Source: a virus
Direction: 5' to 3' (one strand)
IMG/VR virus record: IMGVR_UViG_3300030102_004535
Location: 12,508 to 46,293 of that record
DNA length: 33,786 bases
Shown here: one piece after another, positions 1,297 to 19,410 of the stretch
How the letters are laid out: each line of letters opens with the position of its first letter
How positions within the stretch are numbered: position 1 is the first letter of the stretch
Translations under genes and position numbers: made by a program
Notes under the pieces: model-generated
What the model was told of the DNA's origin: nothing
What the model saw: only the letters and a program-made list of their open reading frames with translations
The model's database searches: none

Positions 1297-2114
1297 AGTA
1301 TATCGACGCAGGCCCATCGCCCGCTGGCTGGAGCAGGCTCTCGAACGTGCTCAAGTGCCCGCGCTACTACGCGCTGAACAGAGAGCACGACCGCACGGCT
1401 TCGGACGCGCTGGTGCGTGGCTCGCTGATGCACATCGCGCTCGCCCACCACTACGCGGCTATCGGCGCAGAGCAGCACGACACTCAAGTCGAGTACCTCA
1501 GTCCCGAGGCTGCGGTCGAGAGGTGTGTCGCCGAGGCAGACTGCGAGCTTCACGACAAGTGGAAGGACAACGTGATTGGCGTGTATCACCAGTACGCGAT
1601 GATGTACCCGACCCCAAGCTGGCGCATCCAAGCGGTCGAAGAGATTGTCTCGACCAAGGTCCGCGATGACGTGCGGGATGTCTCGTATGATTACACGGCC
1701 CGCATCGACCTCATCGTAGCTCACCACGGCAAGCACTACTTCGTGGACCACAAGACGAGCTTCATGATTCTACGCAAGACGTACAACAAGTACACCTTGT
1801 CGGGTCAGTTCCTTGGTCAACAGATGATTGGGCGCGAGATGTTCGGCGACGACTTCGGGGGCGTCATCCTTAACCTCATCGGATGGGATGATAAGAAGCC
1901 TGTTTCTTCGTTTAAAAGGAAAGTTCTGCCTTATGCAGAAAAGTCTGTTGCGCTCTTTCCTGATACAGTTATAATGGGCGAGAGGATGATAGCCGACTTC
2001 AGCGGGAGGGATGCCTTCCACTGGCCCGGTGCTCATCGGGAGACAGCGTGCCAAACGACCTATGGCCCCTGTAGTTTTTTTGAGACCTGTAAAAGAGGAG
2101 GACACTATGAGTAA
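1293..2114 (+). CDS. PD-(D/E)XK nuclease, Cas4/AddB-like with Fe-S cysteines
   Basis: 273 aa. The ATG at 1293 overlaps the upstream stop and has GGAGG at 1284-1288. It shows the RecB-nuclease layout: CPRYYAL with Cys22 near the N-terminus, GSLMH around 43-47, ARIDLI with Asp139, VDHKT with Asp152 and Lys154 (the D...DxK core), then a Gln-rich helix GQFLGQQ near 171-177. The C-terminus carries Cys253, Cys260 and Cys266. With Cys22 this makes the four-Cys pattern that holds a 4Fe-4S cluster in Cas4 and AddB nucleases. In phages such enzymes resect DNA ends for recombination or degrade host DNA. It overlaps the ATPase gene by 8 bp, pointing to a joint recombination module. Polarity and substrate cannot be read from sequence. 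Confidence 0.88.
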   Translation: MKYIDAGPSPAGWSRLSNVLKCPRYYALNREHDRTASDALVRGSLMHIALAHHYAAIGAEQHDTQVEYLSPEAAVERCVAEADCELHDKWKDNVIGVYHQYAMMYPTPSWRIQAVEEIVSTKVRDDVRDVSYDYTARIDLIVAHHGKHYFVDHKTSFMILRKTYNKYTLSGQFLGQQMIGREMFGDDFGGVILNLIGWDDKKPVSSFKRKVLPYAEKSVALFPDTVIMGERMIADFSGRDAFHWPGAHRETACQTTYGPCSFFETCKRGGHYE

Positions 2115-3044: not shown

Positions 3045-3512
3045 ATGGCTGTTATCTTTCGAGCAGATACAGATGATATGAACAGTGGCAAGCTAGAGGA
3101 GCGGGGCATCTACAAGGTGGAGGTCAAGTCTTTGAAGGCGGAAGTCAGCAAGAGCGGCAAGGACATGGTGAATGTCGCAGCCGAAGTTGTTGAGGGTGAG
3201 CACAAGGGCAAGATGGTGTATAAGCGCATCATGATTCCCACTGCCGAACTCAAGTGGCCCCGCTTCCGCTGGCTGAAGATGCTGGAGTCATTTGGACATT
3301 CCGTTGACGAGGCCAAAGCCATTATGGACAGCGGCGTGGATGACGAGCAGCACGTCCTCGGGCAGCAGGGTTGGATTGAGTTTACCCCTGCTGTCGGCGA
3401 AGGGTCGTTTGCGGAGGCGGAGTGGGTGACTGAGCGTGAAGCCAAGTCCCGCACGGCCATCGCAGCCGAGGCGGAAGCCGCTCGTGCCGACATGGACGAC
3501 ATGCCCTTCTAA
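3045..3512 (+). CDS. Single-stranded DNA-binding protein-like (DUF669-type)
   Basis: 155 aa. The ATG at 3045 lies behind GAGGGAGAG (3032-3040). The N-terminal half alternates short strands (GIYKVEVKSLKAEVSKSG, DMVNVAAEVVEG, MVYKRIMIP), as in OB-fold-like phage proteins of the DUF669 type. The C-terminal part is Ala/Glu-rich and ends in ADMDDMPF. That tail closely resembles the acidic tip of bacterial SSB (DDDIPF), which docks partner enzymes, and is the strongest evidence for an SSB role. It would cover ssDNA made by the neighbouring nuclease, helicase and polymerase. It is followed by a long structured gene-free region. Confidence 0.78.
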   Translation: MAVIFRADTDDMNSGKLEERGIYKVEVKSLKAEVSKSGKDMVNVAAEVVEGEHKGKMVYKRIMIPTAELKWPRFRWLKMLESFGHSVDEAKAIMDSGVDDEQHVLGQQGWIEFTPAVGEGSFAEAEWVTEREAKSRTAIAAEAEAARADMDDMPF

Positions 3513-3518
3513 ACACTT

Positions 3519-3704
3519 TGGGGCGCCCTAATCTCGTGGGTGGTTGTGTCCTTCCCGCTTGCGAGTAGGTTTCGTGGTTGTCGCCGTGGGGCGTCCCATT
3601 TATTTTAAGCGGGGGTCTTTGCAGACTCTTTCTTCAGCGGAGTTAGGGCAAGGTAGAGGTTTTACTAAATTTCCCTCCACCTGTCCGCGCAGAGGCCCCT
3701 GCTT
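3519..3704 (+). ncRNA. Candidate structured RNA, two long hairpin domains
   Basis: The 203-nt gap 3513-3715 holds no credible gene but folds strongly. Domain 1: 3519-3530 pairs with 3587-3598 as 12 continuous pairs and encloses a second hairpin, 3533-3543 with 3555-3565. Domain 2: 3607-3622 pairs with 3689-3704 as 16 continuous pairs, then 3637-3641 with 3684-3688, then 3651-3659 with 3674-3682 (one A/C mismatch). Several pairs are G-U on the plus strand and would be A-C mismatches on the minus strand, which favours a plus-sense RNA. A TTTATTTT linker (3599-3606) follows domain 1 and TTTT follows domain 2, so one or both may act as terminators. The 3' strand of domain 2 ends three bases before the GGAG of the next gene. 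The class is not recognised. Confidence 0.55.
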
Positions 3705-3715
3705 TTGGAGACACC

Positions 3716-3901
3716 ATGAACTGCTGGCATTGTAAAGACACCGAACTAATCTGGGGCGGCGACCATGAAGCCGAAGGTAGTACCGTTTACAGTATGGTCA
3801 CCAACCTGACCTGCCCCAAGTGTAGCGCACTGGTTCTGGTGTACTCTGGTGTAGAGGAAGTCGAGCCTCCTTCAAGGATCGTTTTTGATGGCGGAACTTG
3901 A
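3716..3901 (+). CDS. Small zinc-ribbon protein, 61 aa
   Basis: The ATG at 3716 is preceded by TTTTGGAG (3703-3710). Two CxxC pairs (Cys3/Cys6 and Cys33/Cys36) are separated by 26 residues, the pattern of a small zinc ribbon. The rest is hydrophobic strands and an acidic tail. Proteins of this size and pattern are common accessory factors in phage replication regions, but no specific role can be assigned. The leader carries the structured RNA described above, so expression may be controlled by RNA folding. The end overlaps the next gene by 14 bp. Confidence 0.75.
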   Translation: MNCWHCKDTELIWGGDHEAEGSTVYSMVTNLTCPKCSALVLVYSGVEEVEPPSRIVFDGGT

Positions 3902-4217: not shown

Positions 4218-4280
4218 TAGGGCACCGACTTCTTTGTGATTCATTCTCATTAACCTAACATACTAACCAAGGACACTCTT

Positions 4281-6743
4281 GTGGGATTTAACAAAGCGCA
4301 GTGCAGTAAATGTCCGTTGCGAAAATACTGGCAGGCTGAAGGCAAATGGGAGCGAGTAGATTTTCTTCACAACGAATCCGATGTCTTGGTCTTGGGTGAC
4401 GCGCCATCTAAACAGGCTTCTGCTTTGGGCAGAGCATGGGCAGATGAGCACGGCGTTGCCATGAAAGAGGCCCTTGAGTCCGCGAGAGTAAAGCCTCACA
4501 ATGTGGACTATGGTTATGTTGTCGGGTGCCGGTGGCCGAAAGACAATGCGGGCATGTTTATGCAGGTACTTAAAAAGAGAAACCGCAGGCTTGCGGCGAA
4601 GGGCAGGCCCTTAGAGATGTCTCCGATTGAGGCATGTCGCGGACACTTAGAGGAAGAACTGTCCCGATACAAAACAGTCATCACATGTGGCCCAACTGCG
4701 GCCAAGGCTGTACTAGCAGGCAACCCGTCACTGGAGGCTGTTAGAGGCGGCCCTACGGTTGCGGACGGACGCAAGGTACTGCCTACATACCATCCGTCCC
4801 AACTCGTCTCACAGAGGCATCTGCGGCCCGTATTGCACAGCGACATTCAGAAGGCGGTACGCCACCATCGTGACCGGCTTCGATGGCCTGAGCCTGTTGT
4901 CCGATACAATCCCCCGCCGGATGTTGTGCGGGAGTTTTTTGCGGATGCCGCGAAGAATGACTGGTTGTTGTCTTACGATGTTGAGACTGACGGAATCGAC
5001 GCGCTCAATGCTGACCTTCGCTGCATTGGTATAGGAACTGATAATGAAGTTTTAATGCTTGGATTCCTTAGCATTGACGGAACATCGAGATTCTATTCGC
5101 CAGCCGAGGAGGAGGACATTAAACGGCTGCTCCGCGAGGTGTTTGATGAGCGATCTAAAATTCGGATTTGTGGTCACAATGCAGGTTACTTTGATCGCCT
5201 TGTTGTGGAGCAGCATCTGGGCGTTACCCCTGCCCCTCTTGTAGACACACTCCTTCTGCACAAACTCGGGGCGTCTGAGTACAGGCACAGCCTTGGCTTT
5301 GTGGGGTCGGTGCTGACAGACGTTCCTGCGTGGAAGGCAGACCATGCGGGCGTCACGGCCAAGACGGACGAGGAACTCCACGAATACTGCGCGACTGACG
5401 TGGCAGTTACGGCTCGTATTGTGCAGCCGCTGCTTGAGATGGTATACGACCGTAAACAGACGCACTTGATTGAGAAGGACTTGCGTATGCAGAGCTTGTG
5501 CGCCGGGATGCGGCGGATGGGCATTCGTATACATGAGCCTACACGGGCCGCCCATGAGGAAGAGCAGACGGCTGTCGCCCGGAAATGGTTAGGCAAGCTA
5601 AGGCGGATAGAGCCGGACATAAACCCGAACTCCCCCACACAGCTTCGTCACTTGCTGTTTACAAAATGGAGCCTGCCCCCGCATGAGTATACCTTGTCGG
5701 GCGAGCCTTCGACCAGTGCCTCCTCACTGCGGGCACTGTCCGTCAATCCTCTCGCAGATGAAGAGCAGCAGGAGTTTATTCAGGCGCTTCGTTTTTACCG
5801 CAGGGCTGAAAAGCTGCTGTCCACCTACATTAGAAAGTTTGCGCCTGAGACCGGCGTAGTAAAGGATGGTTATGTCTACCCAGATTACAACTCACACGGA
5901 ACTGTTACCGGACGACTTTCTTCGTCTAACCCTAACTTCCAGAATATCCCGTTCAACCTACGAGATATGTTTATCCCTCCAGACGGTTGCGTCTTCGTCG
6001 GTGCGGACTATGATCAACTCGAACTACGCTTCGCAGCCGCCTTGGCAAACGCCAAGCACTACCTCGACGCCTTCGAGAAAAAAGAGATTGACCCCCACAA
6101 CCTCACCGCAGACCTCATGTTCGGAGAAGTCTTCTGGAATGCGGAAGGTGCGCCGGATACCAAGATGGGCAAAGGCAAGGGTCAGTTTAAGCAACTGCGT
6201 AACTTGGCCAAGACAATCTGCTTTGCCTCGCTATACGGTGCGTCCGCGCCTAAGGTTCATGAGATAATCCAGAGGGCCGAGGACGACGACGGCAACATGC
6301 TGTACGCCCACTATGACTTGCGTCAGATTCGACTACTTCACCGCCGCTGGAAATCTAAGGCCCCGGAGTTTGAGGCTTGGTGGAAAAGCGCGATGCGAAA
6401 GTTTGCGTTGGACGGCTACATTGAAGAGGTCGTCTGGATGCGGCGTCGGTACTTCGCCGAAGAGGACTACAACGCCATCCTGAACTTCGGGGTGCAGGCA
6501 GGCGGATTTGCTGTGGTAGCCATGTCTATGCTTGAGCTTGTCGAGAAGCACATCCCGTTCGACTTCGACAACAAGATAGGGCTGGTCAATCAACTACACG
6601 ATGCCGTGCTTCTGTCGGTTCCCGAGGCGCGTGCCGAGGAGGTCAAGCAGATCGTTGACGAAACCTTGACACGCAGGGTGGACGGTCTCGATGTTACCTT
6701 CAGCGCGGAAGCAGAGATAGGAATGACTTGGAAAGATGTCTAG
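4281..6743 (+). CDS. UDG family 4-like domain fused to family A DNA polymerase with 3'-5' exonuclease
   Basis: 820 aa. The start is a GTG at 4281 with AAGGA at 4269-4273. Residues 1-200 look like a family 4 uracil-DNA glycosylase: four Fe-S cysteines in the right places (C8, C11, C83, C119), LVLGDAPSK near 36-44 and TYHPS at 169-173. Proofreading motifs are complete: DVET (Asp233, Glu235), CGHNAGYFD (Asn300, Asp305) and YCATD (Tyr369, Asp373). Polymerase motifs are TGRLSSSNPNFQNIP (543-557), motif A DYDQLELR (Asp576), motif B RNLAKTICFASLYG (Lys644, Phe648, Tyr652) and motif C QLHDAV (His773, Asp774). Motif C has Ala where Pol I has Glu. Phe648 matches Phe762 of E. coli Pol I. This is the replicative polymerase; whether the UDG domain is an active repair enzyme or a binding module is open. 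Confidence 0.93.
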   Translation: MGFNKAQCSKCPLRKYWQAEGKWERVDFLHNESDVLVLGDAPSKQASALGRAWADEHGVAMKEALESARVKPHNVDYGYVVGCRWPKDNAGMFMQVLKKRNRRLAAKGRPLEMSPIEACRGHLEEELSRYKTVITCGPTAAKAVLAGNPSLEAVRGGPTVADGRKVLPTYHPSQLVSQRHLRPVLHSDIQKAVRHHRDRLRWPEPVVRYNPPPDVVREFFADAAKNDWLLSYDVETDGIDALNADLRCIGIGTDNEVLMLGFLSIDGTSRFYSPAEEEDIKRLLREVFDERSKIRICGHNAGYFDRLVVEQHLGVTPAPLVDTLLLHKLGASEYRHSLGFVGSVLTDVPAWKADHAGVTAKTDEELHEYCATDVAVTARIVQPLLEMVYDRKQTHLIEKDLRMQSLCAGMRRMGIRIHEPTRAAHEEEQTAVARKWLGKLRRIEPDINPNSPTQLRHLLFTKWSLPPHEYTLSGEPSTSASSLRALSVNPLADEEQQEFIQALRFYRRAEKLLSTYIRKFAPETGVVKDGYVYPDYNSHGTVTGRLSSSNPNFQNIPFNLRDMFIPPDGCVFVGADYDQLELRFAAALANAKHYLDAFEKKEIDPHNLTADLMFGEVFWNAEGAPDTKMGKGKGQFKQLRNLAKTICFASLYGASAPKVHEIIQRAEDDDGNMLYAHYDLRQIRLLHRRWKSKAPEFEAWWKSAMRKFALDGYIEEVVWMRRRYFAEEDYNAILNFGVQAGGFAVVAMSMLELVEKHIPFDFDNKIGLVNQLHDAVLLSVPEARAEEVKQIVDETLTRRVDGLDVTFSAEAEIGMTWKDV

Positions 6744-6752
6744 GGAGGACAC

Positions 6753-7307
6753 ATGAGTAATGAGAGGTACAAGGGCCACAAACAAGAACTCAAGGCTTGG
6801 ACGCCGACTAGAAGAGAGCTTATCGAGGAGCTTGGCACTGCGTCGGACAGGGAGCTTGGCCTGAAATACTCGTTGAGCACTGGCCGTGTTCGACAGTTGC
6901 GGCGTGAGATGGGCATCGCATCCCACACGGAAAATAAAAAACGCACGCCCCTAAGTGAACTACAGGAGAAGGTTCAGAGTCTTGAGGATGAAGTGTTTCG
7001 TCTTCGAGAGTTTGTGCAAACCGAGCGGGAGGCAGCCAGCCGGGAGGGCTGGGCCATTGTTGCGGCTAGCGCCCGTTGTGTCGATGAGGTTCCCAAGCTC
7101 CTTAACATGAAGAATGAGCTATCTGAACTTGTGAGGCGTGAGGTCCGCATAAAGACATCGCACATGCGTAGGCTGGTTGACCAAGCGGTACATGAAGAAG
7201 TCGCTCGCGTCCAAAAAGTGTACGAGATTGAAAACAGAAAGCAGGGCAAAAAGCTATTTGAGTTGCCCGGTTTTGTGTACCAAGAGTTTAGTGGGGAGAA
7301 CACATGA
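6753..7307 (+). CDS. HTH plus coiled-coil protein, partner of downstream ATPase
   Basis: 184 aa. The ATG at 6753 lies behind GGGAGGACAC, ten bases after the polymerase stop. Residues about 18-57 form a helix-turn-helix-like segment (ELIEELGTASDRELGLKYSL, then STGRVRQLRREMG), as in resolvase or sigma-region-4-type DNA-binding domains. Residues about 68-110 form a heptad-like coiled coil (LSELQEKVQSLEDEVFRLREFV). The C-terminal half is helical and basic. Its stop overlaps the next start as ATGA, so it is probably made in step with the SMC-like ATPase and may load or target it. It could also be a repressor or a replication-initiation protein. No exact family recognised. Confidence 0.72.
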   Translation: MSNERYKGHKQELKAWTPTRRELIEELGTASDRELGLKYSLSTGRVRQLRREMGIASHTENKKRTPLSELQEKVQSLEDEVFRLREFVQTEREAASREGWAIVAASARCVDEVPKLLNMKNELSELVRREVRIKTSHMRRLVDQAVHEEVARVQKVYEIENRKQGKKLFELPGFVYQEFSGENT

Positions 7308-8290
7308 TTGAGGGAATCTATTCTAATGTAAAAGGGCCGATTGACTTACAACTCGCATCGCCGTACAACCTTGTCTTTGGTCGGAATGGCTCGGGGAAGA
7401 GTGCCATCATACACTCAATTGAACTTGGCGCGTTCGACACTGCTTTCGATGCGGCAGGTAAGGATGTGAGGACAAAGGGCGCGTTAGAGTTGCTCGCCCC
7501 GCGAGGCGACGGGCTGTTCTGCCATCTTACCGTGGATGGGGAAGAGGTTAGTTGGGGCGATCGCAACAAGAAGTTTGACAACGTGGTCGCGATGGCAATG
7601 CGTGCTTTGACTGGGAGCCACGATCATCTGGTCGAGTTTCTCCTTAAACACATCGACGATGACGATCACCCCATCGTTCTCGACATTCCGGGGTGGGATG
7701 CCCGCGTAAAACATCACGGCTCTTACCGCAAGGCCCTGCTTGAGATGATGGCGTCGGTGGGTTCGTCTATTCGCAGCCATCAGAAGCGGCTTCGTGAGTT
7801 GGCTGTGATTCAAGAGTATGTCGAGGACAACGGTCTTGAATCCTACTTCGTGGACAATGAAAAGGATTCTCTTGAGGCGCAAATTCTGAAGTCTAAGCAG
7901 TTGAAGTCTAAAATTGACAAAGAGGCCCTTATCTTTGTGAAAGGAGCCTTCGATGCAGTCGAAGAAGGAATCAACCGCTACCTGCCCGAGCAGATTGGCA
8001 GGGCTGAGTTTGTTGAACTTGGGGGCAAGATCCGACTTTCCATCAACGGAGATGTCGTCATTCCTTCCGGCGTCGAGACCGTGGCTCTTGCTGTCGCGCT
8101 CGCTGGTGCCCTTCTGAGCGGTCCCCGCGCTCTTTTTATCTTACCGGACAGGGCATACGACCCAAGAACTCTAGGCTGGCTTATGCGCTCGCTTAGGAAT
8201 GTGGTGTGTGCGGGTGTCTTCGTGCAGACAACCGTGTTACCCGAAGGCTACGATTTTATGTCCCTCGGGTGGGACTTGGTGAGTGTCTAA
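7304..8290 (+). CDS. Small SMC/RecF-like P-loop ATPase
   Basis: 328 aa, ATG at 7304 coupled to the upstream gene. The N-terminus reads like an ABC-type SMC/RecF head: YNLVFGRNGSGKS, with Walker A at 26-33. About 80 residues in the middle (150-225) are helical and coiled-coil-like. At 253-265 IPSGVETVALAVA resembles the ABC signature (SGxE), followed by ALFILPDRAYD (276-286) in the Walker B position, with Asp-Arg rather than Asp-Glu. The catalytic Glu therefore seems absent or moved, so ATP turnover may be slow or need a partner. The length is far below RecN or SMC and closer to a head with a stub arm. It may act in recombination, in DNA-end handling or as an anti-host factor. Inference only. 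Confidence 0.72.
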   Translation: MIEGIYSNVKGPIDLQLASPYNLVFGRNGSGKSAIIHSIELGAFDTAFDAAGKDVRTKGALELLAPRGDGLFCHLTVDGEEVSWGDRNKKFDNVVAMAMRALTGSHDHLVEFLLKHIDDDDHPIVLDIPGWDARVKHHGSYRKALLEMMASVGSSIRSHQKRLRELAVIQEYVEDNGLESYFVDNEKDSLEAQILKSKQLKSKIDKEALIFVKGAFDAVEEGINRYLPEQIGRAEFVELGGKIRLSINGDVVIPSGVETVALAVALAGALLSGPRALFILPDRAYDPRTLGWLMRSLRNVVCAGVFVQTTVLPEGYDFMSLGWDLVSV

Positions 8291-8862
8291 TGGACGAGTG
8301 TACTATTGGCTTATATCCGTCTGAGGTCGGCAACCCTCGACTTCGGAATCGCATTCTCTCCTGCCTGCCTGTGTGGGAAGGCTATACTTACGGGCATAAG
8401 GTTGACTACCCGCCAGACATCCCCGGCGTTCCAAGTACGCTAATCCGGAGCGGAACCCGAGAGATTGACTGTTCGTCCTTTACCTACGGCCTGCTCGCCC
8501 AAGTATATCCAAAGGCGGGGTGGAACTTCACCCGCTATAAGCAGTGGCAGATGTGGGCGCGTGAAGACCTGTGGGGACCATTGACTACGGCGACAGACAT
8601 GGGCCTCACTACCAAAGGCACCGGCAATGGATGGTATCTGTATCAGAGATGGGACGAGCCGTGGAAACGTGGTCACTCGTTCATCGCTTTAAAGCGAGGG
8701 CAGAATCTCCTCGTTCTTGAGGCAACTCTGCGCTTCAATGAAGACGGTGTGGTCTGGCGCAACATCGGCCCCGCCGTTAACATCCTTCCTTCTATTTGGT
8801 CAGGCACGGAGACCGACATCCTTGGGGATGCCGAATACTTCTCTGTTCGACTCCGAGGCTGA
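8290..8862 (+). CDS. NlpC/P60-like cysteine peptidase, putative endolysin
   Basis: 190 aa. The start is the ATG at 8290 in a TAATG overlap with the ATPase gene; the upstream in-frame ATG at 8206 lies deep inside that gene. The active-site pattern is that of papain-like wall hydrolases: IDCSSFTYGLL with Cys61, GHSFIAL with His129, and LVLEAT with Glu144 as a likely third residue. No signal peptide or membrane segment is seen, so release would need a holin. NlpC/P60 enzymes cut peptide bonds in peptidoglycan stem peptides, so endolysin is the best call; a tail-associated wall-opening enzyme or an amidase-type fold is possible. It is the last plus-strand gene and its stop is one base from the stop of the opposing gene. 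Confidence 0.72.
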   Translation: MDECTIGLYPSEVGNPRLRNRILSCLPVWEGYTYGHKVDYPPDIPGVPSTLIRSGTREIDCSSFTYGLLAQVYPKAGWNFTRYKQWQMWAREDLWGPLTTATDMGLTTKGTGNGWYLYQRWDEPWKRGHSFIALKRGQNLLVLEATLRFNEDGVVWRNIGPAVNILPSIWSGTETDILGDAEYFSVRLRG

Positions 8863-8863
8863 C

Positions 8864-9238
8864 CTACGGAACAAACAGGATGTTTACCGTACATGCGTTG
8901 GACGGAGCGGATGGAGAGCCGACGCTATTGCTCTGCGTTGTCGTCGCAAGGTAAGTAATCGCTGTATCGTGGTCCATTCCAGTAGGCATCGAGAAGTATT
9001 CTTTCGTCGAGGCAGCCGCCTTCAAAATAAATGATGGGGCTGTCGTGCCGATGGTTGGCGAGGCGTTCTCATACATCTTCAAGTATGTCACCGACGAGTT
9101 CATGGTGTTGTCAAACTCGATGGCGTAGATCGTAGAAGACCCATTGGTGAAGCCGTTGACGGCGCTGTTCGTCACGGCTGTGTCGCGAAGAACGCGGGTG
9201 CCGAGTGGATTAAATAGACTGGTGATTTCTGCGGCCAT
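8864..9238 (-). CDS. Small virion-type protein, 124 aa, paralogue of neighbour
   Basis: The start is the ATG at 9238 (MAAEITSLFNPLGT), with AGTGAGG upstream. The body is Ser/Thr/Asn-rich beta-type sequence with no Cys pair or membrane segment. It aligns along its length with the 124-aa product of 9250-9624: IYAIEFDNTMNSSVTYLKMY against LYSIFVNASSAGGQFFLKLY, then AAASTKEYFSMPTGM against AARELLQFPEGI. It is the last gene of the late unit and ends one base from the endolysin stop. Role unknown; a head decoration or appendage subunit is plausible. Confidence 0.75.
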   Translation of the reverse strand: MAAEITSLFNPLGTRVLRDTAVTNSAVNGFTNGSSTIYAIEFDNTMNSSVTYLKMYENASPTIGTTAPSFILKAAASTKEYFSMPTGMDHDTAITYLATTTQSNSVGSPSAPSNACTVNILFVP

Positions 9239-9249
9239 TTATTGCCTCA

Positions 9250-9624
9250 CTACTTAAACGTAAACACGGTGGGGTTAGCTGCGGCGGATATAGCTGCGGC
9301 TGTTTGGCCCGCGTTTGTGCTCACGGTGTACCCCAAGCCGTTAGAGAAGGTAATGCCTTCGGGAAACTGGAGTAGCTCCCGAGCAGCGTCGAGCTTGAAC
9401 TGAAAGTCAGGGAAGTCCGAGGTCTCGTCAACCGCCCCCGCCTTGTCGTACAGCTTCAAGAAGAACTGGCCACCGGCACTGCTCGCGTTTACAAAAATGC
9501 TGTACAGTTTGCCTGCGGCTCCGAAGGCGTTGTCGCGCTCGGTCCCTGCGCCCCCGACGAGGCCGTCGTCGGAAAGAAACTTGAAGTCAATATGCGTGGA
9601 TTGATTATTTGCTGTTGCGGCCAT
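9250..9624 (-). CDS. Small virion-type protein, 124 aa, paralogue of neighbour
   Basis: The ATG at 9624 follows GGGGTGATGA and is just past the preceding stop. The length is identical to the downstream gene's 124 aa and the core pattern is the same (hydrophobic-Tyr, FFLKLYDKAG, LDAARELLQFPEG). It ends in an Ala-rich segment and VFTFK. There is no signal peptide. A tandem duplication with divergence is the simplest origin. Likely a small structural or decoration protein, because it lies at the end of the virion gene unit, but no family is recognised. Confidence 0.75.
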   Translation of the reverse strand: MAATANNQSTHIDFKFLSDDGLVGGAGTERDNAFGAAGKLYSIFVNASSAGGQFFLKLYDKAGAVDETSDFPDFQFKLDAARELLQFPEGITFSNGLGYTVSTNAGQTAAAISAAANPTVFTFK

Positions 9625-9627
9625 TCA

Positions 9628-9804
9628 TCACCCCATTACTTCGTCGAGGTACGCGGTGACCTCTGACAGCAAGAGTGCAATGATTTCGTCGCGCTCGTCT
9701 GGTGTGATCTTCTGATCGTCAGCGAGTGCCACGGTAATCTTCCGGCCAACGCGGAGGATGCGGGCCACGAGCTTAAAGATGTTGAACTTCTTGTTCTTAG
9801 CCAT
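9628..9804 (-). CDS. Small basic/amphipathic protein, 58 aa
   Basis: The start is the ATG at 9804 (MAKNKKFNIFKLVARIL). The frame stays open upstream to 9951, but only inside the metallophosphoesterase gene. The N-terminal half is a basic amphipathic helix (KLVARILRVGRKITVALA) and the C-terminal half an acidic helix (ITPDERDEIIALLLSEV). It overlaps the phosphoesterase by 8 bp. This could be a membrane-active or regulatory peptide or a minor virion component; unknown. Note its likeness to the 34-aa product at 28918-29022 (KVLDIVGSILRIVAPLVRKK). Confidence 0.6.
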   Translation of the reverse strand: MAKNKKFNIFKLVARILRVGRKITVALADDQKITPDERDEIIALLLSEVTAYLDEVMG

Positions 9805-10957
9805 TTCTGTCTCCGATAAACTGTTTCCATCCGGTTTCAAAAGCAATGCGCTCATAGGGGTCATGCCCCTCAAAGACGCGACCGTTCCAAACGATCCGGC
9901 CATTAGTGATTGGAAGTACCTGCATATGAACGTCATTGGTGTTCTCGTCAAGTATAGCGACCCCGACGCCTTGTTGCCAGTCAGGAGTTAAAGAAACTCC
10001 GGGGGTTGGTCCCGGCACACGGACAAGGCAGCCACTTGACATCGCTGTGATTTGACGCGGACCATCAGGACCATGAAACGTCTTCTGCACAAACTCGACC
10101 TTATGGATATGCCCGTAGACCTCGGACCAACGGGCCGTCTTGGCGATTGCCGTTGCGGTCGCACCACTGCCTGCGCGAACTTTGGTGCCGTGAGTCACGC
10201 GCACAGGAGAGTTGGAGTCGGGCCACAGCCACCAGTCCGCACCATACGGGCCAACGTAGTCTATGTCCAACTTGTCCAAGTGAAGCAGGCGGTTGAGACT
10301 TAGTACAGGATCTGTTTCTAACGCAGGAGCCACGCCCGTTGCTTCGGGCAAAAGCTCAACCGCTGCCTTGGCGATGCGCTCCTCGTGATTGCCAGCCAAG
10401 TACAAGATTTTAGATGCCATGCACGCGCTACGCAAGTCCGCCAACCACCAGTGTAGCTCATCAATCGCGGGCTGGGTTGTCTGACGAAACTCAGGTTTGC
10501 GGGGGAATCTCGTCGACCAAGGGGCTAAATCTAACATATCCCCTAAGAGCACAATAACGTCAGGCTGCATAGAGCGGGCCATTGAGACCACCGCGTCCAT
10601 CGCAGTGCGGTCGTGCATTGGGTCGAGGTAAGTGTAACGGTCACGCCATGCAAAACCCAACTGCAAGTCGGGCACAAATAGGCATGTCTTTAGCCCGTCA
10701 TCCCTGCCTTCAGCTTCGATCCGGGGGATAAACTTGGGAGGGTGAGCAGGCTGTCGGTCAGGTTCAATCCTGCGCTCAAGGTACGCTTTGACCTGATACA
10801 GCGTGATAGTATCTTCCCCGCCTTTGACGCTCTGCTCCCATGAGTTGCACTTCCATGAGGAGACTCGCCACAACTTTCGGTCCACATTTGCGTGCTTCAA
10901 TAACTGTGCGAGGGTCTTTACGCGATGGCCCTGTGCGCTGACAGTTATCTCTTCCAT
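9797..10957 (-). CDS. Calcineurin-like metallophosphoesterase
   Basis: 386 aa; the ATG at 10957 directly follows the stop of the previous gene. The five metallophosphoesterase blocks are visible: PDLQ (Asp97), GDMLD (Asp140, Asp143), GNHEE (Asn190, His191), THG (His256) and GHIH (His283, His285). The first block is DxQ (Gln99) instead of DxH, so one metal ligand is altered. About 85 residues precede the catalytic domain and are Trp/Lys-rich with no known fold. Phage members are variously phosphodiesterases or DNA-repair-like nucleases; its position in the late unit rather than among replication genes is notable. Substrate unknown. Confidence 0.88.
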   Translation of the reverse strand: MEEITVSAQGHRVKTLAQLLKHANVDRKLWRVSSWKCNSWEQSVKGGEDTITLYQVKAYLERRIEPDRQPAHPPKFIPRIEAEGRDDGLKTCLFVPDLQLGFAWRDRYTYLDPMHDRTAMDAVVSMARSMQPDVIVLLGDMLDLAPWSTRFPRKPEFRQTTQPAIDELHWWLADLRSACMASKILYLAGNHEERIAKAAVELLPEATGVAPALETDPVLSLNRLLHLDKLDIDYVGPYGADWWLWPDSNSPVRVTHGTKVRAGSGATATAIAKTARWSEVYGHIHKVEFVQKTFHGPDGPRQITAMSSGCLVRVPGPTPGVSLTPDWQQGVGVAILDENTNDVHMQVLPITNGRIVWNGRVFEGHDPYERIAFETGWKQFIGDRNG

Positions 10958-12536: not shown

Positions 12537-12822
12537 GGGTTTGTGATGCCAAAGCAGGATTAGCGGCTGCACTTGCAAGCATCATCGTGTCGTGACCTAA
12601 AAGGCCCCCGATGAGAATCAAGGCCAAAACTATGGTTTGGGGATTCTTCAACGCAGTGCCCCAGTCGAACTGATTTCGCTTCGCCATCTCAGTAATCTGG
12701 GCTTCAATCCGGTCCAATGTGCGGACGGAGTGCTTTTGTTCATTTTGCACAATAGCCAAGGTCTCGCGAATACCGCCTACTTGATCTTCCAGAATGGTTA
12801 CACGTTGATCAAGGTTCGACAT
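12520..12822 (-). CDS. XhlA/holin-like membrane protein with coiled coil
   Basis: 100 aa. Residues 1-48 are a heptad-like coiled coil (LDQRVTILEDQVGGIRETLAIV), followed by a basic turn and a hydrophobic segment at about 61-80 (PQTIVLALILIGGLLGHD), then a small Ala-rich tail. Coiled coil plus one membrane span and a length near 100 aa resembles XhlA-type lysis accessory proteins and some holins. It overlaps the giant protein gene by 14 bp. Lysis is the best guess; a minor ejection-complex membrane protein is an alternative. Confidence 0.55.
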   Translation of the reverse strand: MSNLDQRVTILEDQVGGIRETLAIVQNEQKHSVRTLDRIEAQITEMAKRNQFDWGTALKNPQTIVLALILIGGLLGHDTMMLASAAANPALASQTLDTVP

Positions 12823-15800
12823 CTTCGTCTACTCCGTAGTGCTTGAGCAGGGCTTCAACCCTAGCTTCAGAGGCCATATCACCACCAACATCTCTAGCTT
12901 CATCCTGTCGAGCCTTTCTTATACCACGCTCGATGTCACTAACTCTGTAACCTTGTTGTTGGTCACCACGCCACATCCTTAGATTTAGTACGCCTACAAT
13001 CTGTAATAAAGCAATTGCCTTGGCTTTGCGGTCTTGGTCTTCTTCGTTTTCTAGGTCTGCGAGCAAGATTTTTATCGCGTCGGGAGCCGAGTCCACACCA
13101 TAAAATAAGGTTGCAAACAACTGAAGCCTCTGAAACTCTTGCGCCGCAATCTTGAACAAGCCCAAATTAGTAAGCAGGTCACGGCTTCTGATGCGGGGGT
13201 CTGTGTCAGTCGTCTCTCTCTTTGGAGCAATTCTGGCCTTCTGGAGCGCCTCAAATCCCTCTTTGACCACAAAGTTTTCGCTACGATCGATGTACTCGAT
13301 AAGCTCAACCTCTTGTGCCGATAAGGGTGCTCCAAACATGCTTACCGTATCATCGTCTAGGTTGCTTATTTTGTTCAACACTCCGCGAAAAAACTGCCCC
13401 GCAGGCGGGATGAGCGTCCTCTCGATGCCGTCGGCCATCCGAGTTGCAGCCGCCTTGCTGTCATAAATCGCATCTTCCCGCAGCCAAGATACCGCAAGAC
13501 CTGTGACCATAGAGAACACTTCGTTAAGTATGGACAGCCCCTCCATTGCGGGCACAGGGCTACCAAACGTATACATGTATTGCTCGTAGGGTAGCTTCAA
13601 CTCTCGCGCAAGCTCCCTGCCCTTTGGCCCGAGGGTGCGGGGCGATGTCGCGAGGTAGTTTTGATAGAAATAAGGTATCTGCCGTTCCGCCCTTAGCCTT
13701 CTCGCCTCTTCTTTTGTCAACTCTTGTTCAGGGTCGATATACTCATCAGGGCGGATAACGTCTGCAAAACGAGTCATGGCCATAATGCGCTGCTGAGGGG
13801 TCTGCATTTTCAGCATTTTTTTGGTGTAGTCCATCAGGTCGTCTGAACCACTGAACATGTTTCGCATTGTCGCCAGAAGGAAGTTTTTTGTGTAGGTGTA
13901 AAATGCCGCCCACGAAGCGATAAACCTGCTCTCTAGAGGCCCGACGCTTTTTTGGTAGTCATAGATGCTGAAAGCAAGATTGTCTCTAGCCTCGTTCCAC
14001 GATCTGCCCTTGTTGAACACCTCATCGATCATAAAGAGTTCGCGCTGACGCCTGTTGCCTGCACGGAGCGCTACGTCAACTGTTTCCCTCCACGCAAAAA
14101 CGCCCGCTTCGGTTAGCTTATAAACAACTTTACCGCCCTCTTTCGCTTGGGTCGCGTAGCCCTGAGCGACGAGAGCGGGGCCTGCTTTTTGAAGCCCTTC
14201 TTTTGCTATTCGCTCTGTCAATGCAAACCAGTCTTCACCCCGGAACCCGGACTCTAGCGGCGATTTGTTAAGCTCATGCCGGACTTCCGCAGGGTTGATT
14301 TTTACAGTTCTGCCGTTGGCCAACTTGTAGGTCTTGACTTGATTTACACCCTTGTAAATGTCGTCGAGCATCTCATTGAACACAGCAGTAAACATGAGCG
14401 GCAGTGGGAATTTCCCCCCAGAGGCTTTAGACAGTGCAGCGCCAGACGCTAGCGCCACGTCCTGTATCACCGGGCCGACAACAGGAATGTAACCAAGACC
14501 ACCCACGCCTCCGACAATCGCCGCTTTGCCTACGCCATCTCTAGCCAGCATTTGAAGCGTGTCACCGGACCACACAAAAAAAGCAAACGAAATGTCACCT
14601 AAAATTCCAATAGTTTGCGCGGCCCGCCATTGTGAGAACGTGCGCTTCATGAGGTCGCTGGCCGACACAGCAAGAGGGCTTCCGATTTTTTCGGCGGCAA
14701 GATTTACGTTTAAGTCTTTGACAATAGATTTTGTCATCTCGCCAAAAAGCCGCTCATCATTTGCGGGGGCCATGTATATTCGACCGTCAGGTCCGCGTCC
14801 GTTAACCACCATTCGGGCGTAAGCATTACGGGCAATAGTGAGCTTTTCCCTGAATTTTACCCTGTAAGCAGATTGAATAAGCTCTGGCCCCAAAATGTAC
14901 ATCGTGTCAATAAAATCAAGCCAAGACATTTCGGGCTCGTGCTTCGACAGCTCTGCCAAAGGCACCTTCTCAACACCATTCTCACCGAATAAAAATGCGG
15001 TGGTTACACCGTCAACCTCTTCAATTTTTTCTACTCTACGAGAGATGGGGACGGGAAGTCCAGCCCTGCCCATCCGCTCTGCAACCTCTGCCTCAACGAC
15101 AGGAGACGTGGGGCCACGTTTTTTCTCTGCTCTTTTTATTGCCTTTGCCGCTTTTGTTGCCTCTTCAGAGCCGGAAACCGCATAGTCTCCTTTGCCGAAA
15201 AGCAGTCTCCTGAGAGGGGCCATATCTGAGTTCAATACAACCATGTCCCCTATTTCAATGGTTGATCTTGAAGACATTCCCCGCGCCTTTGATCCCTCAA
15301 CCAAGATTCTATACGCCCTAGCGTTTCGCATGGTGATGGTTCGGGTAAGGCTATTTGAGATGTCGTCCGCAAGTTTTTGCTGTTGAGCCCCGGCCAAGAT
15401 CGAGCGGTATGACAGATTAAGTTCGCGGGCAGGAAGGTCGTCAACCTTGCCGCCTGCCACAAGTGGGGCCTTTACCTTCTTCAGCGCGGCGATCGCCATA
15501 TCTTGCATCCGCCTAAACTTGATGGCAGGGTCTGTTATAGCTACAAGGTCCGCCTCTTCTTTGGCAAGCGCCCGCGCAAATTCAACTGTTGCTTTGTTGG
15601 CTTTGCTTATGTGATCGCCTCCAACAGCGTCATCAATGAATGAGTAAACAAAGCCTCTTAAAGAGAGTGTTGACGCCGCAATGTCCCCTGAGACTTCATC
15701 GCCACCAGCAGCAGACTTGCCCAATTGTTCAGCCGCCTTACCCTTTCTGCCTCCTGAAAGGTACGCTCTGCCCGCCCCAGCCATATTGCGGATTGCAAGG

Positions 15801-18800
15801 TCTATAAATGTCTCGCCCATCCCAATGTTGCCTGTCAGCTCAAAACGCTTGTTCTTTGGCATAAGGGGGTGAGCAGGCACGGGTATGTTCCTGCCTCCCA
15901 AATAGAGACGGTCGCTCCCGCCGAGATACTGTACAATCATCGGGTGAATTTGGTCTTTGGGCGCTCTGGTCGCAATTAAGTACAGGTCTGTTTCGGCAAC
16001 ACGAAAAAAGCTGGCCACGTTGTTACTGGCTCTTACGATCTCTTTAGCGTACTTATCTCCGATAAGGCTGATTCTCTGCCTAAATATCGGGAACAGTTCT
16101 GTAAAAAATTTAGTCTGAGCGCCCGCCCAAGCCAGCATGTTTGAGGCTTGCGACAAAAAACTGTTCTGCGTTGAAATGCCTAAGACAGCCGCCATCCGCC
16201 CTTTGTTCAATTCCGGCAACGCTGACCAAACCAATGTCGTTATTTCACCTTCCAGCAGGGCCGAGAGGAACTCTTGATCGCTCAACTTGGCAAGCTCTTT
16301 GCCCCCGAGAGATCTTAGCTTGGCGGCCTCTTTAGTCAGGGGGTTAGCCATCACACTGGCAACATCGTCAGACACATTCAATGCTCTTGCGAGTGAGTTC
16401 TGCCCCTCTACCGTCCGAAGAATGCCTAGAGCCTCATGCAGGCGGGTCATGTGTCCATACATAATATCAGACACTGTTCGTAGGGCCGCTTCCGATACGG
16501 GCCGACGCAAACCGCCAACAGGGTCGTTTGCGGCTGCGAGCAGTTTGACATCGGCGTCAATGTTTTTAACTGTGTCTTCAGCGCGGAGTAAGCCCTTTTC
16601 AGCCCTTGCAATCTCGATATTTACAGATTTCATTAGGCGTTGAAATTCATTGCTGTCATCGGTCATGGTCAAAAGAGTGCGTAGTTGATCCATGATCTCT
16701 GATTCGGAAATGCCCTGTGTTCCGATGACCCGAATGTGGTTTTTTATCTGGCCCGCAATGTCTGACTGCTCTGCGAGTGATTCGTTTATGCGGGCGATAA
16801 GAGCGGCCTCCCGCGTAGCGACAGCGGTTTTCATGTCGTTCAAAACAAAATCTTCCAGCTTCTTCATGAATTTAGCGCGTGCCCCGTTAAACTTGGGGTC
16901 ACTTCGCTTGAGGCCGCTGTAGAGATCGTCCATCTCATCCAGAAGATCTCCGGCTTTGATGTTCTTTTGTTTGAGAATGTCGTCAAACTCGCCTGACTTC
17001 AGCATCCTAGCAAACTGTTCTCTGCCCGCCTCCAGAGACGCCGCCCGTTCTGCTTTCGACGCATCAGCGGGCTTGGGGCCTGTGAGCGCGTCAAGCGCAC
17101 GAACGTGCTCTAGCTCATCTTGGGCCTGTAGCATCTTGAGCCTTGCCGCTTGAAGTTGTTCTTCAAACAGATCGAGCTTCTCACGATTCGCCTTGATCGT
17201 CTGTCGCACTGCCCCAAGTATCGCTCTATCGCGGTCTAGACCCGCCTCCATTGCGCGAGCAGCTTGCAGGTTGGCCACGGCTTCTTGCTCGGTCTTCTGC
17301 AATTGTTGAGCACGATATTGCAGCCTAGCCACTGCTTCACGAAAAGCCGACTTTTCGCCCGTTTTGCTTTTTGACGCCAACACCTGAAGGTCCGCAAGGG
17401 TGTCTCGTATGATTGCGTCTTGAGCGGGACGCAAGTCCGCATTGATGCCCGTTTCTTTGCGTAGAATCTTCTCGGCTTCTATGGGGTCGATAAACCCATC
17501 GGCATCGCGGGAGTCATCTATTTTCTTAATGACTTTTCCTAGCGCGTTATACTGCGTGTTTTCCCCGCTGAGGCGTCGGACGTTCGTCGCCGAAGTCATC
17601 GTCCGGGCCTCACTACCTAGAGCGACTGTGCCCTTGACCGCTTTAATAGCGTAGGGGAGAAAGGATATGGGGTTTAAGTCGAATGGCGTCAACATAAACA
17701 AGAAGGAGAGCGAACCGGCGCTAAGATTCGCCCAAAACGGCTTCTGGTACCCGGCTTGGCCGCCCATTATTTCGCCCCACTCTGTTAGTAAGCGACCGCT
17801 GTTGTCGATTCCTGTAGACACCTCAAGAGCCAGCCTTGGGTCGTACCAAAGTTCAGGGATACGGCCTCGAATCCATTCCGCTCGATGCTCTCGTTTTTCC
17901 GGGGTATCAGCGGGCCCAAACTCTCGGAGGTAGTCTTTTCGGGCGAGATGAAATGCCGCGCCTAAAACTTCGCTCGTGGAAAATCTAATAAAGGAGTCAG
18001 CACCACGGACAAAGCCTGAGTTTGCTAAGTTGTACATAACTAAGGCGTCTATGGGCCTCCCCGTCATAAGACGTGCGGTCGCCGCGCTCTCCGTCAAAAA
18101 CTCCAACCCTCCGGGTCGGAACGCCTCTGAAACAACCTGAACCTCTTTTCCGTCATCGTCGGTTACGGTTTTGACAAACTCACCTGCCGCCTGCCTTTCA
18201 TTGATAAACAAATACAGGATCGGAGCAAGCGCGGGTATTTTTTGACCAAGCCAGCCGCTAGGCGTTTTGCCGTCTAAGTGTTTTTCGGCTTCAGTATCGT
18301 CAGGCATGTAGACGAATTGATCGGTCTTCTTTACGATACGCGCAATGTCTTCGTCTGCTTTTTTCCGCGCTTCTTTGCGAATCTCTTTAATGTCCCTCTC
18401 GGGATCGCGGGCGTATCCTGTTCGGACATAAAAGCTAACGAGGTTGCTTTTAGTGCTGGGCAGATCAATTCCCTCAGTTCGTCCCGTTGGATCGTCATAC
18501 AAAGGGACAAAGATGTTGGCGGCGTAAGCGGTCTTTTCCAGTCCCGGCTTGCCTACGATGCTGCTTTGCCGGTAACGAAACAGGTCTATCTTATTATCTT
18601 CGAGGACTTCATGAGTAGTGTAATACTCATGTTCACCGAACTTGCCCCTGTCGAGCACTTTGCCCTTGCTGCCGAATGCCCTCTCTTCGTGTGCCGCTTG
18701 TTCTTCTGCACTCGCAAGAGACCGCTGCCGCATTTCCTCTGCGATGTACCCCCAAACGGGGTCGTCAGGGATTTGATCTAGAAGTGCGCGATGCTCAAGT

Positions 18801-19402
18801 TGTTTTCTAGTGTTTAACGCTGGGTCGTCAGCAGTATCTGCTATTACAACGCCGTCTCTAACCGCGACTTTTCTAGGTTGCTCCGGAGGGGCGGCAATAG
18901 CGGCCTGTCTGTTTGTGTCCACAAATGAGTTGGCGTCCTTTACGAAGTTAATTTCGAGGTCGCGGGGGTCAGTATAGCTTTTCCCAAAGGCACGTTTTGC
19001 CATAATGTTGAGAGCAACAAACTCGGGGTCCGTCAAAACAGGGGCTACTTCATACGGGTCGGTGCCCTCGGCGATGTCCTCTTCATACGACATGATGCGC
19101 TGCACCAAGGAGTTGTTTGCCTTCGCCCTGTTTGCGGCGTTGACCTCCATTCCTTGCGAGGTGAGCATTGAGTCGAGTGCTTCGATTTGCAGGTTTACCT
19201 CGGAGTCACCCTCTCGCATTGTCGCGGCAATCTCAGGCTGATCCGCAAAAGCAGCATAGCGGGCCTCTTGTTCTTTTTGTGCCGCCTCTGCCTTTCGTTG
19301 CAGAGCCTGTGCAGCAAAGCCATCCGGGTTCGCTGTGGCAGCTTGAATCGCATCATCGAGGGCAAGCTCGTCTGCGGAAAGCCCCTGATTGTCGTCAGCC
19401 AT
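12809..19402 (-). CDS. Giant virion protein, probable internal/ejection protein, 2197 aa
   Basis: The start chosen is the ATG at 19402 (MADDNQGLSADELAL), just after the upstream stop; the in-frame ATG at 19492 would overlap the previous gene by 82 bp. The N-terminal quarter is charged and helical. A hydrophobic patch lies near 547-587 (AGSLSFLFMLTPFDLNP), a long coiled coil at about 660-780 and another hydrophobic Gly-rich stretch at about 1600-1667 (GGVGGLGYIPVVGPVIQ). The C-terminus is helical and acidic. Its size, position after nozzle and fibre-like genes and lack of tape-measure features fit the internal virion proteins that podoviruses eject. I see no RNA-polymerase, lytic transglycosylase or protease motif. 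It fills about one fifth of the window. Confidence 0.75.
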   Translation of the reverse strand: MADDNQGLSADELALDDAIQAATANPDGFAAQALQRKAEAAQKEQEARYAAFADQPEIAATMREGDSEVNLQIEALDSMLTSQGMEVNAANRAKANNSLVQRIMSYEEDIAEGTDPYEVAPVLTDPEFVALNIMAKRAFGKSYTDPRDLEINFVKDANSFVDTNRQAAIAAPPEQPRKVAVRDGVVIADTADDPALNTRKQLEHRALLDQIPDDPVWGYIAEEMRQRSLASAEEQAAHEERAFGSKGKVLDRGKFGEHEYYTTHEVLEDNKIDLFRYRQSSIVGKPGLEKTAYAANIFVPLYDDPTGRTEGIDLPSTKSNLVSFYVRTGYARDPERDIKEIRKEARKKADEDIARIVKKTDQFVYMPDDTEAEKHLDGKTPSGWLGQKIPALAPILYLFINERQAAGEFVKTVTDDDGKEVQVVSEAFRPGGLEFLTESAATARLMTGRPIDALVMYNLANSGFVRGADSFIRFSTSEVLGAAFHLARKDYLREFGPADTPEKREHRAEWIRGRIPELWYDPRLALEVSTGIDNSGRLLTEWGEIMGGQAGYQKPFWANLSAGSLSFLFMLTPFDLNPISFLPYAIKAVKGTVALGSEARTMTSATNVRRLSGENTQYNALGKVIKKIDDSRDADGFIDPIEAEKILRKETGINADLRPAQDAIIRDTLADLQVLASKSKTGEKSAFREAVARLQYRAQQLQKTEQEAVANLQAARAMEAGLDRDRAILGAVRQTIKANREKLDLFEEQLQAARLKMLQAQDELEHVRALDALTGPKPADASKAERAASLEAGREQFARMLKSGEFDDILKQKNIKAGDLLDEMDDLYSGLKRSDPKFNGARAKFMKKLEDFVLNDMKTAVATREAALIARINESLAEQSDIAGQIKNHIRVIGTQGISESEIMDQLRTLLTMTDDSNEFQRLMKSVNIEIARAEKGLLRAEDTVKNIDADVKLLAAANDPVGGLRRPVSEAALRTVSDIMYGHMTRLHEALGILRTVEGQNSLARALNVSDDVASVMANPLTKEAAKLRSLGGKELAKLSDQEFLSALLEGEITTLVWSALPELNKGRMAAVLGISTQNSFLSQASNMLAWAGAQTKFFTELFPIFRQRISLIGDKYAKEIVRASNNVASFFRVAETDLYLIATRAPKDQIHPMIVQYLGGSDRLYLGGRNIPVPAHPLMPKNKRFELTGNIGMGETFIDLAIRNMAGAGRAYLSGGRKGKAAEQLGKSAAGGDEVSGDIAASTLSLRGFVYSFIDDAVGGDHISKANKATVEFARALAKEEADLVAITDPAIKFRRMQDMAIAALKKVKAPLVAGGKVDDLPARELNLSYRSILAGAQQQKLADDISNSLTRTITMRNARAYRILVEGSKARGMSSRSTIEIGDMVVLNSDMAPLRRLLFGKGDYAVSGSEEATKAAKAIKRAEKKRGPTSPVVEAEVAERMGRAGLPVPISRRVEKIEEVDGVTTAFLFGENGVEKVPLAELSKHEPEMSWLDFIDTMYILGPELIQSAYRVKFREKLTIARNAYARMVVNGRGPDGRIYMAPANDERLFGEMTKSIVKDLNVNLAAEKIGSPLAVSASDLMKRTFSQWRAAQTIGILGDISFAFFVWSGDTLQMLARDGVGKAAIVGGVGGLGYIPVVGPVIQDVALASGAALSKASGGKFPLPLMFTAVFNEMLDDIYKGVNQVKTYKLANGRTVKINPAEVRHELNKSPLESGFRGEDWFALTERIAKEGLQKAGPALVAQGYATQAKEGGKVVYKLTEAGVFAWRETVDVALRAGNRRQRELFMIDEVFNKGRSWNEARDNLAFSIYDYQKSVGPLESRFIASWAAFYTYTKNFLLATMRNMFSGSDDLMDYTKKMLKMQTPQQRIMAMTRFADVIRPDEYIDPEQELTKEEARRLRAERQIPYFYQNYLATSPRTLGPKGRELARELKLPYEQYMYTFGSPVPAMEGLSILNEVFSMVTGLAVSWLREDAIYDSKAAATRMADGIERTLIPPAGQFFRGVLNKISNLDDDTVSMFGAPLSAQEVELIEYIDRSENFVVKEGFEALQKARIAPKRETTDTDPRIRSRDLLTNLGLFKIAAQEFQRLQLFATLFYGVDSAPDAIKILLADLENEEDQDRKAKAIALLQIVGVLNLRMWRGDQQQGYRVSDIERGIRKARQDEARDVGGDMASEARVEALLKHYGVDEDVEP

Positions 19403-19410
19403 AAGTACCC

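Follow-up and report, generated by a model that had tools for sequence, protein, structure and literature searches.

Tandem structured RNAs downstream of a marine phage SSB gene: loops complementary to early ribosome-binding sites point to a candidate C4-like antisense regulator

The DNA analyzed here (the window, 33,786 nucleotides) comes from an uncultured viral record of 46,293 bases in IMG/VR. Its plus-strand early genes encode an exonuclease, a Sak4-like recombinase, a ssDNA-binding protein (SSB; DUF669), a zinc ribbon, a 110-aa protein, and a UDG-PolA polymerase, and the structural genes lie on the minus strand. The DNA polymerase gene (4281–6743) codes for an N-terminal uracil-DNA-glycosylase-superfamily domain fused to a 3'-5' exonuclease and a family A polymerase (Pfam matches UDG, 3e-14; DNA_pol_A_exo1, 4e-7; DNA_pol_A, 3e-53). 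Among the structural genes, a single ORF of 2,227 aa occupies positions 12809–19492 of the minus strand. The SSB and zinc-ribbon genes are separated by a gap of 203 nt (3513–3715), which ends at a ribosome site, as the initial annotation had stated, namely the GGAG of the zinc-ribbon gene. The gene 3' of the RNA described below differs among related phages, and contigs L002 (5674–5896), L003, L038, and L043 have an additional gene for a small CxxC protein (MGECPFCW...) that separates the RNA from the zinc-ribbon gene. The features of the gap, its flanking genes, and the predicted targets are listed in Table 1.

Table 1. Features of the SSB–zinc-ribbon gap, flanking genes, and predicted target sites (window coordinates).
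Feature	Position	Strand	Basis or remark
Predicted target GAGGACAC, leader of the Sak4-like recombinase gene	2098..2105	+	L2 duplex -12 to -17 kcal/mol, 15 members
Gene upstream of the gap: DUF669 / phage ssDNA-binding protein (SSB)	3045..3512	+	Pfam DUF669 1e-8, PHROG 378 1e-8; RNA-1 forms its 3' UTR
RNA-1 (domain 1): three-way-junction RNA of ~80 nt, few nt 3' of the SSB stop codon	3516..3600	+	Covariation, 15 distinct relatives
RNA-1 P1, 5' strand (partner 3587-3598)	3519..3530	+	MFE; covariation
RNA-1 P2, 5' strand (partner 3555-3565); hypervariable sequence with pairing retained	3533..3543	+	Covariation
RNA-1 L2 seed GUGUCCUU, complement of the early-gene extended Shine-Dalgarno RRGGACAC	3546..3553	+	GUCC invariant in relatives; statistics
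RNA-1 P2, 3' strand (partner 3533-3543)	3555..3565	+	Covariation
RNA-1 P3 hairpin	3568..3585	+	Closing pairs compensate
RNA-1 L3 seed GUGGUUGU, complement of ACAACCAC 5' of early Shine-Dalgarno	3574-3581	+	8-nt matches in early leaders; statistics
RNA-1 P1, 3' strand (partner 3519-3530)	3587..3598	+	MFE; covariation
AU-rich single-stranded linker AUUUAUYU, RNA-1 to RNA-2	3599..3606	+	Near-invariant, 12 relatives
RNA-2 (domain 2): second three-way junction, then U-run and GGAG	3607..3704	+	99.4% of cells paired, 12 close relatives
RNA-2 stems P1'; P2'; P3'	3607-3622/3689-3704; 3624-3629/3639-3644; 3646-3652/3680-3686	+	Fold and alignment
Gene downstream of the gap: small CxxC..CxxC zinc-ribbon protein	3716..3901	+	Relatives have other genes here
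Predicted target AAGGACAC, leader of the UDG-PolA DNA polymerase gene	4269..4276	+	8-nt match; weak or absent in ~half of members
Predicted target GAGGACAC, leader of a 184-aa gene	6745..6752	+	Sequence complementarity

The gap had initially been proposed to hold a novel structured RNA with a 12-bp and a 16-bp stem, both carrying upper hairpins. The minimum free energy (MFE) fold of the gap contained both basal stems (P1 and P1' in Table 1), with two hairpins atop each. Its energy was -88.3 kcal/mol, compared to a mean of -69.9 kcal/mol for 200 dinucleotide shuffles, none of which folded as well (z = -4.0). The plus strand folded better than the minus strand (z of -2.1 to -5.4 vs -0.6 to -3.4 in seven members), in agreement with the plus-sense RNA that had been suggested. 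A protein encoded in the gap was ruled out, because the reading frames were not conserved and the loop indels were not multiples of three. Structure-stimulated stop readthrough or frameshifting after SSB was also rejected: the frame closes within P1 in L009, L012, L015, and L016, and is open in L004 and L013.

RNA-1 was aligned across 15 distinct sequences, where 99.3% of cells were paired and nine pairs were doubly compensated. The covariation score was 0.439 vs 0.204 for shuffled alignments; none of the 500 shuffles reached 0.439, and sliding of the pairing partner destroyed the score. In P1, 11 pairs were unbroken in all 15 sequences, with compensations from U-A to A-U and from G-C to A-U, and six of the seven tested P2 pairs had changed on both sides. 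One G-U pair was conserved in 15/15 sequences and the others were mixed. The P2 stem varies freely around an apical loop L2 that reads GUCC in all relatives (GUCCUY overall), loop L3 keeps UGGUU, and the junction contains the invariant unpaired nucleotides AAU and UA. A pseudoknot between AAUC of J1/2 and GGUU of L3 would be possible, but was set aside as it showed no covariation. The near-invariant linker that follows RNA-1 is a possible processing site.

About 23 related viral contigs were found by searches with SSB, an SSB alignment, RNA patterns, and Sak4. RNA-1 was located a few nucleotides after the SSB stop codon in every relative covering the region, and the RNA was confined to this site, in one uncultured marine phage clade. 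The RNA pattern had no match in 84,980 bacterial and archaeal genomes, the same genomes contained no Sak4 relatives, and DNA matching against 50,697 phage records returned no nearby relatives. A weak match to the RNA-1 model in L074 (8583–8623, minus strand, genome G007; 23.7 bits, E=0.004) covers just 41 nt outside the early region and is probably a terminator-like palindrome. When the window region and five relatives were searched by cmscan, no Rfam family matched near the gap, either at the gathering threshold or at E<=5; together with the covariation, this bears out the novelty of the RNA. A Hammerhead_II match within the L043 polymerase gene (E=4.8) was attributed to chance. In L031/L056 and L039–L044, SSB is swapped for a version that is 37–45% identical, while Sak4 (75–84%), the polymerase (82–88%), and the RNA stay close. 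The RNA is therefore more conserved than the gene that precedes it.

RNA-2 is less uniform. Covariation supported both basal stems, strongly that of RNA-1 and more weakly that of RNA-2 among the 12 close relatives. A covariance model built from RNA-1 only matched RNA-2 of L041 (46.5 bits, E=3.8e-10) and of L039 (20.9 bits, E=0.0015), and the junction AAUC...GUAGG is common to RNA-1 and RNA-2 of L041. In L043, RNA-2 is absent and the next gene begins directly 3' of RNA-1. The arms of RNA-2 are mosaic (window 3607–3704, L002–L016): at least three versions of P2' and three of P3' combine independently (compare L038 and L004), which indicates exchange of arm modules by recombination between phages. 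Taken together, the matches in L041 and L039, the loss in L043, and the arm versions show that the gap consists of two paralogous RNAs, of which RNA-1 is the constant one. The RNA-1 model gave no score for RNA-2 of the window itself, so paralogy there rests on shape and position. RNA-2 appears to be a diverged copy of RNA-1 with exchangeable arms.

The switch that had been proposed for this domain, via the alternative pairing 3637–3641/3684–3688 (GCGGA/UCCGC), found no support, since relatives such as L009 and L012 are unable to form this pairing. The hairpin 3624–3629/3639–3644 is intact in 12/12 close relatives and includes one compensatory pair (U-G / U-A / A-U). The basal stem of RNA-2 overlaps the ribosome site of the next gene and looks terminator-like, being followed by UUUU in the window and by UUUUUCUCU in L041; a terminator scanner gave no flag, the loop being too long. 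RNA-2 may act simply as a terminator or as a mask of the ribosome site. No match clearly above chance was found between the RNA-2 loops and the leaders of the same or other phages.

The apical loops L2 and L3 of RNA-1 together complement a bipartite motif of early-gene leaders, ACAACCAC-n-AGGACAC, that covers the Shine-Dalgarno sequence, and the two halves lie in the correct antiparallel order. RRGGACAC, the complement of L2 of the window, occurs in 11 plus-strand copies in the genome, and 10 of the 11 lie just 5' of start codons (for example, AAGGAGGACACTATG). Across seven genomes, the nucleotide following [AG]GGA in ribosome sites was C in 55/129 early vs 9/94 late cases, and RGGAC was found in the ribosome sites of 55/192 early vs 10/232 late genes. 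ACAACCAC is the exact complement of the window L3, GUGGUUGU, and is carried 5' of RGGAC-type sites in early leaders of the phage of the window. One example is the leader at G000 6033, which reads ACAACCACACAAGGAGGACACTATG. In B-type phages, where L3 is CUGGUUAC, the arrangement UAACCAG-AG-AGGACAG is found in G003 leaders. The SSB leader has no target site. An action of L2 solely in cis, on the polymerase ribosome site, was rejected, because that match is present in only about half of the members. In G000 (5484–10400; L065), early leaders preceding many small unknown genes contain a recurring A/C-rich cassette (CACAACCACACAAGGAGGACAC and its variants), which is found in none of the late genes.

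Leader complementarity was evaluated statistically on genes called by a simple script. In the phage of the window, L2 alone had a match of at least 7 nt in 7/35 early vs 2/33 late leaders, and L3 alone in 7/35 vs 0/33; 0.4% of genomic 11-mers from this phage equaled the single-loop result. L3 alone reached no significance in G005 or G007 and was borderline in G003 (0.05). For the bipartite test, the L3 site was placed 5' of the L2 site. The mean energies were -25 to -27 kcal/mol for early leaders, compared to -20.5 to -22 kcal/mol for the reversed order, -20 to -23 kcal/mol for late leaders, and -20 to -22 kcal/mol for shuffled loops. Shuffled loops performed as well on early leaders in 0/600 trials for G000 and at frequencies of 0.0017 (G003), 0.018 (G005), 0.0017 (G007), and 0.005 (G002); these p-values, like those of the loop swaps below, ignore the relatedness of the phages and the repeated leader cassette of G000, whose leaders are not independent because the A/C-rich cassette is common to them. 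With random genomic pairs of the same spacing, the observed value was reached in 1–2 of 1500 draws per genome in the same five genomes (0.07%–0.13%). Late genes were never significant in the bipartite shuffle test (0.2–0.43). G008 gave no bipartite signal (p=0.295), with 14 usable early leaders on a contig that starts just upstream of the RNA.

The A-type L3 fitted A-type genomes better, and the B-type L3 fitted the one large B-type genome better. When own loops were compared with swapped loops, the own loops were favored for the Sak4 (p=0.0008) and polymerase (p=0.0046) leaders, and the SSB leader gave p=0.92. The bases adjoining GGAC, including the two after it, did not clearly track the L2 of each phage.

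Since the loops of RNA-1 complement many early ribosome-binding sites, RNA-1 is probably a small antisense RNA that reduces early protein synthesis. We propose, with a probability of roughly 0.58, that the SSB 3' UTR in this gap carries two C4-like antisense RNAs in tandem, and that RNA-1 masks many early ribosome sites. RNA-1 would be released as a small RNA from the 3' UTR of the SSB mRNA, probably by processing, and its three-way junction would present two seed loops in trans. In many early leaders, L3 would pair with the A/C-rich block (of the ACAACCAC type) and L2 would bind the Shine-Dalgarno sequence and spacer (RAGGACAC type). Masking of these ribosome sites would then lower early protein synthesis during infection, with SSB spared for want of a site. 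Phage_integrase (PF00589; tyrosine integrase) had no match in six records, which makes a role of RNA-1 in lytic timing more likely than one in lysogenic immunity. Among the functions suggested initially, a small RNA is thus the best supported, with its loops antisense to early ribosome-binding sites; a riboswitch and an origin gained no positive support, and a terminator-like role is possible for RNA-2 only, given its stem and U-run. A more ambitious version is doubtful: a global early-to-late switch based on RNA, in which one small RNA reads a bipartite early code, and the tandem, fast-exchanging RNA-2 contributes a changing specificity directed at further targets, such as mRNAs of the host or of competing phages.

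An unlikely alternative, although the strongest of those considered, is a cis-acting mRNA element, in which the junctions protect the 3' end of the SSB mRNA and RNA-2 attenuates downstream transcription or translation, including that of the DNA polymerase. The RNA does begin directly after the SSB stop codon and end at the next ribosome site, dividing conserved upstream genes from variable downstream genes. The GC-rich RNA-2 stem is followed by U-rich sequence in all but one member, and UCUC of the linker can pair with GGAGA in most close relatives. However, a hypervariable P2 around an invariant loop, together with invariant junction bases, exceeds what a stabilizer or terminator needs, RNA-2 is wholly missing in L043, and the complementarity of the loops to distant leaders is left unexplained. 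A cis element may additionally be true for RNA-2.

We regard as improbable that RNA-1 is an autoregulatory operator or a riboswitch aptamer, binding a phage protein (SSB or polymerase) or a ligand and controlling the downstream genes. Its conserved three-way junction, invariant unpaired AAU and UA, loop motifs, and the replication genes on either side would suit such a function, but the downstream gene varies between members. An operator would be expected to co-evolve with its protein, yet RNA-1 is nearly unchanged where SSB is merely 37–45% identical. The riboswitch suggested initially also loses ground, as the proposed alternative stem is not conserved and no Rfam aptamer matched. A DNA-level structure (replication origin or primase/packaging site) is hardly credible despite the position between the SSB and DNA polymerase genes, because G-U pairs are conserved, the plus strand folds better, and the cumulative GC skew of the contig has its extremes at 9.5 and 21.9 kb, ~6 kb from the RNA.

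An antisense RNA-1 invites comparison with the C4 RNA of phages P1 and P7, a three-stem RNA of ~77 nt that RNase P excises from a longer transcript; its loop b' lies partly over the ribosome site, and the upstream a' gives specificity (PMC5320573). The Rfam C4 model (RF01695) scored 68.8 bits on phage P1 itself and had no match at E<=10 in seven genomes. With the C4 site annotation taken from the phage P1 record (NC_005856), the sequence and fold of P1 C4 place b' within the loop of the third hairpin and a' on the 3' strand of the junction. RNA-1 resembles C4 in being a three-way junction of ~77–87 nt with a long closing P1 within a phage operon transcript, and in having two short seeds, for the ribosome-binding region and an upstream block, in antiparallel order (for RNA-1, as complementarity only). 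In contrast to C4, the seeds of RNA-1 are in the apical loops L2 and L3, two RNAs occur in tandem, and six records of this clade have no Phage_integrase match. The described target of C4 is the antirepressor (icd/ant) operon, whereas RNA-1 matches many early genes. Because the C4 model does not match and the seeds are placed elsewhere, RNA-1 is C4-like in its proposed working and not a member of the C4 family. The C4-like solution of a three-way junction with an upstream and a ribosome-site seed may have arisen more than once.

Passages of a phage small-RNA review (PMC12197685) describe P22 sar as a phage antisense RNA that pairs with phage mRNA and blocks translation initiation, as is proposed here for RNA-1. 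In these passages, C4, sar, and aQ each have one phage gene as their target, and no multi-target early-gene regulator RNA is described. By description, C4 and sar each control one antirepressor system; unlike what is proposed for RNA-1, sar is single-target and without bipartite multi-target logic. Here, a structurally distinct new RNA appears to be matched to a leader code that is repeated across the early genes of phages without an integrase match. Exact, testable predicted targets were obtained from the sequence alone, and the mosaic RNA-2 suggests modular diversification of such RNAs. Small RNAs of Alphaproteobacteria that carry anti-Shine-Dalgarno loops are host-encoded and have several targets. 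They share with RNA-1 the loop-presented anti-ribosome-site seeds and the multiple targets predicted for it, but their folds differ, and the RNA-1 seed extends past the Shine-Dalgarno sequence and is joined by a second seed. The translational shut-off of many early genes is carried out in phage T4 by the protein RegA. The same role is proposed for RNA-1, which, if the proposal is correct, would be an RNA counterpart of such protein-based early shut-off.
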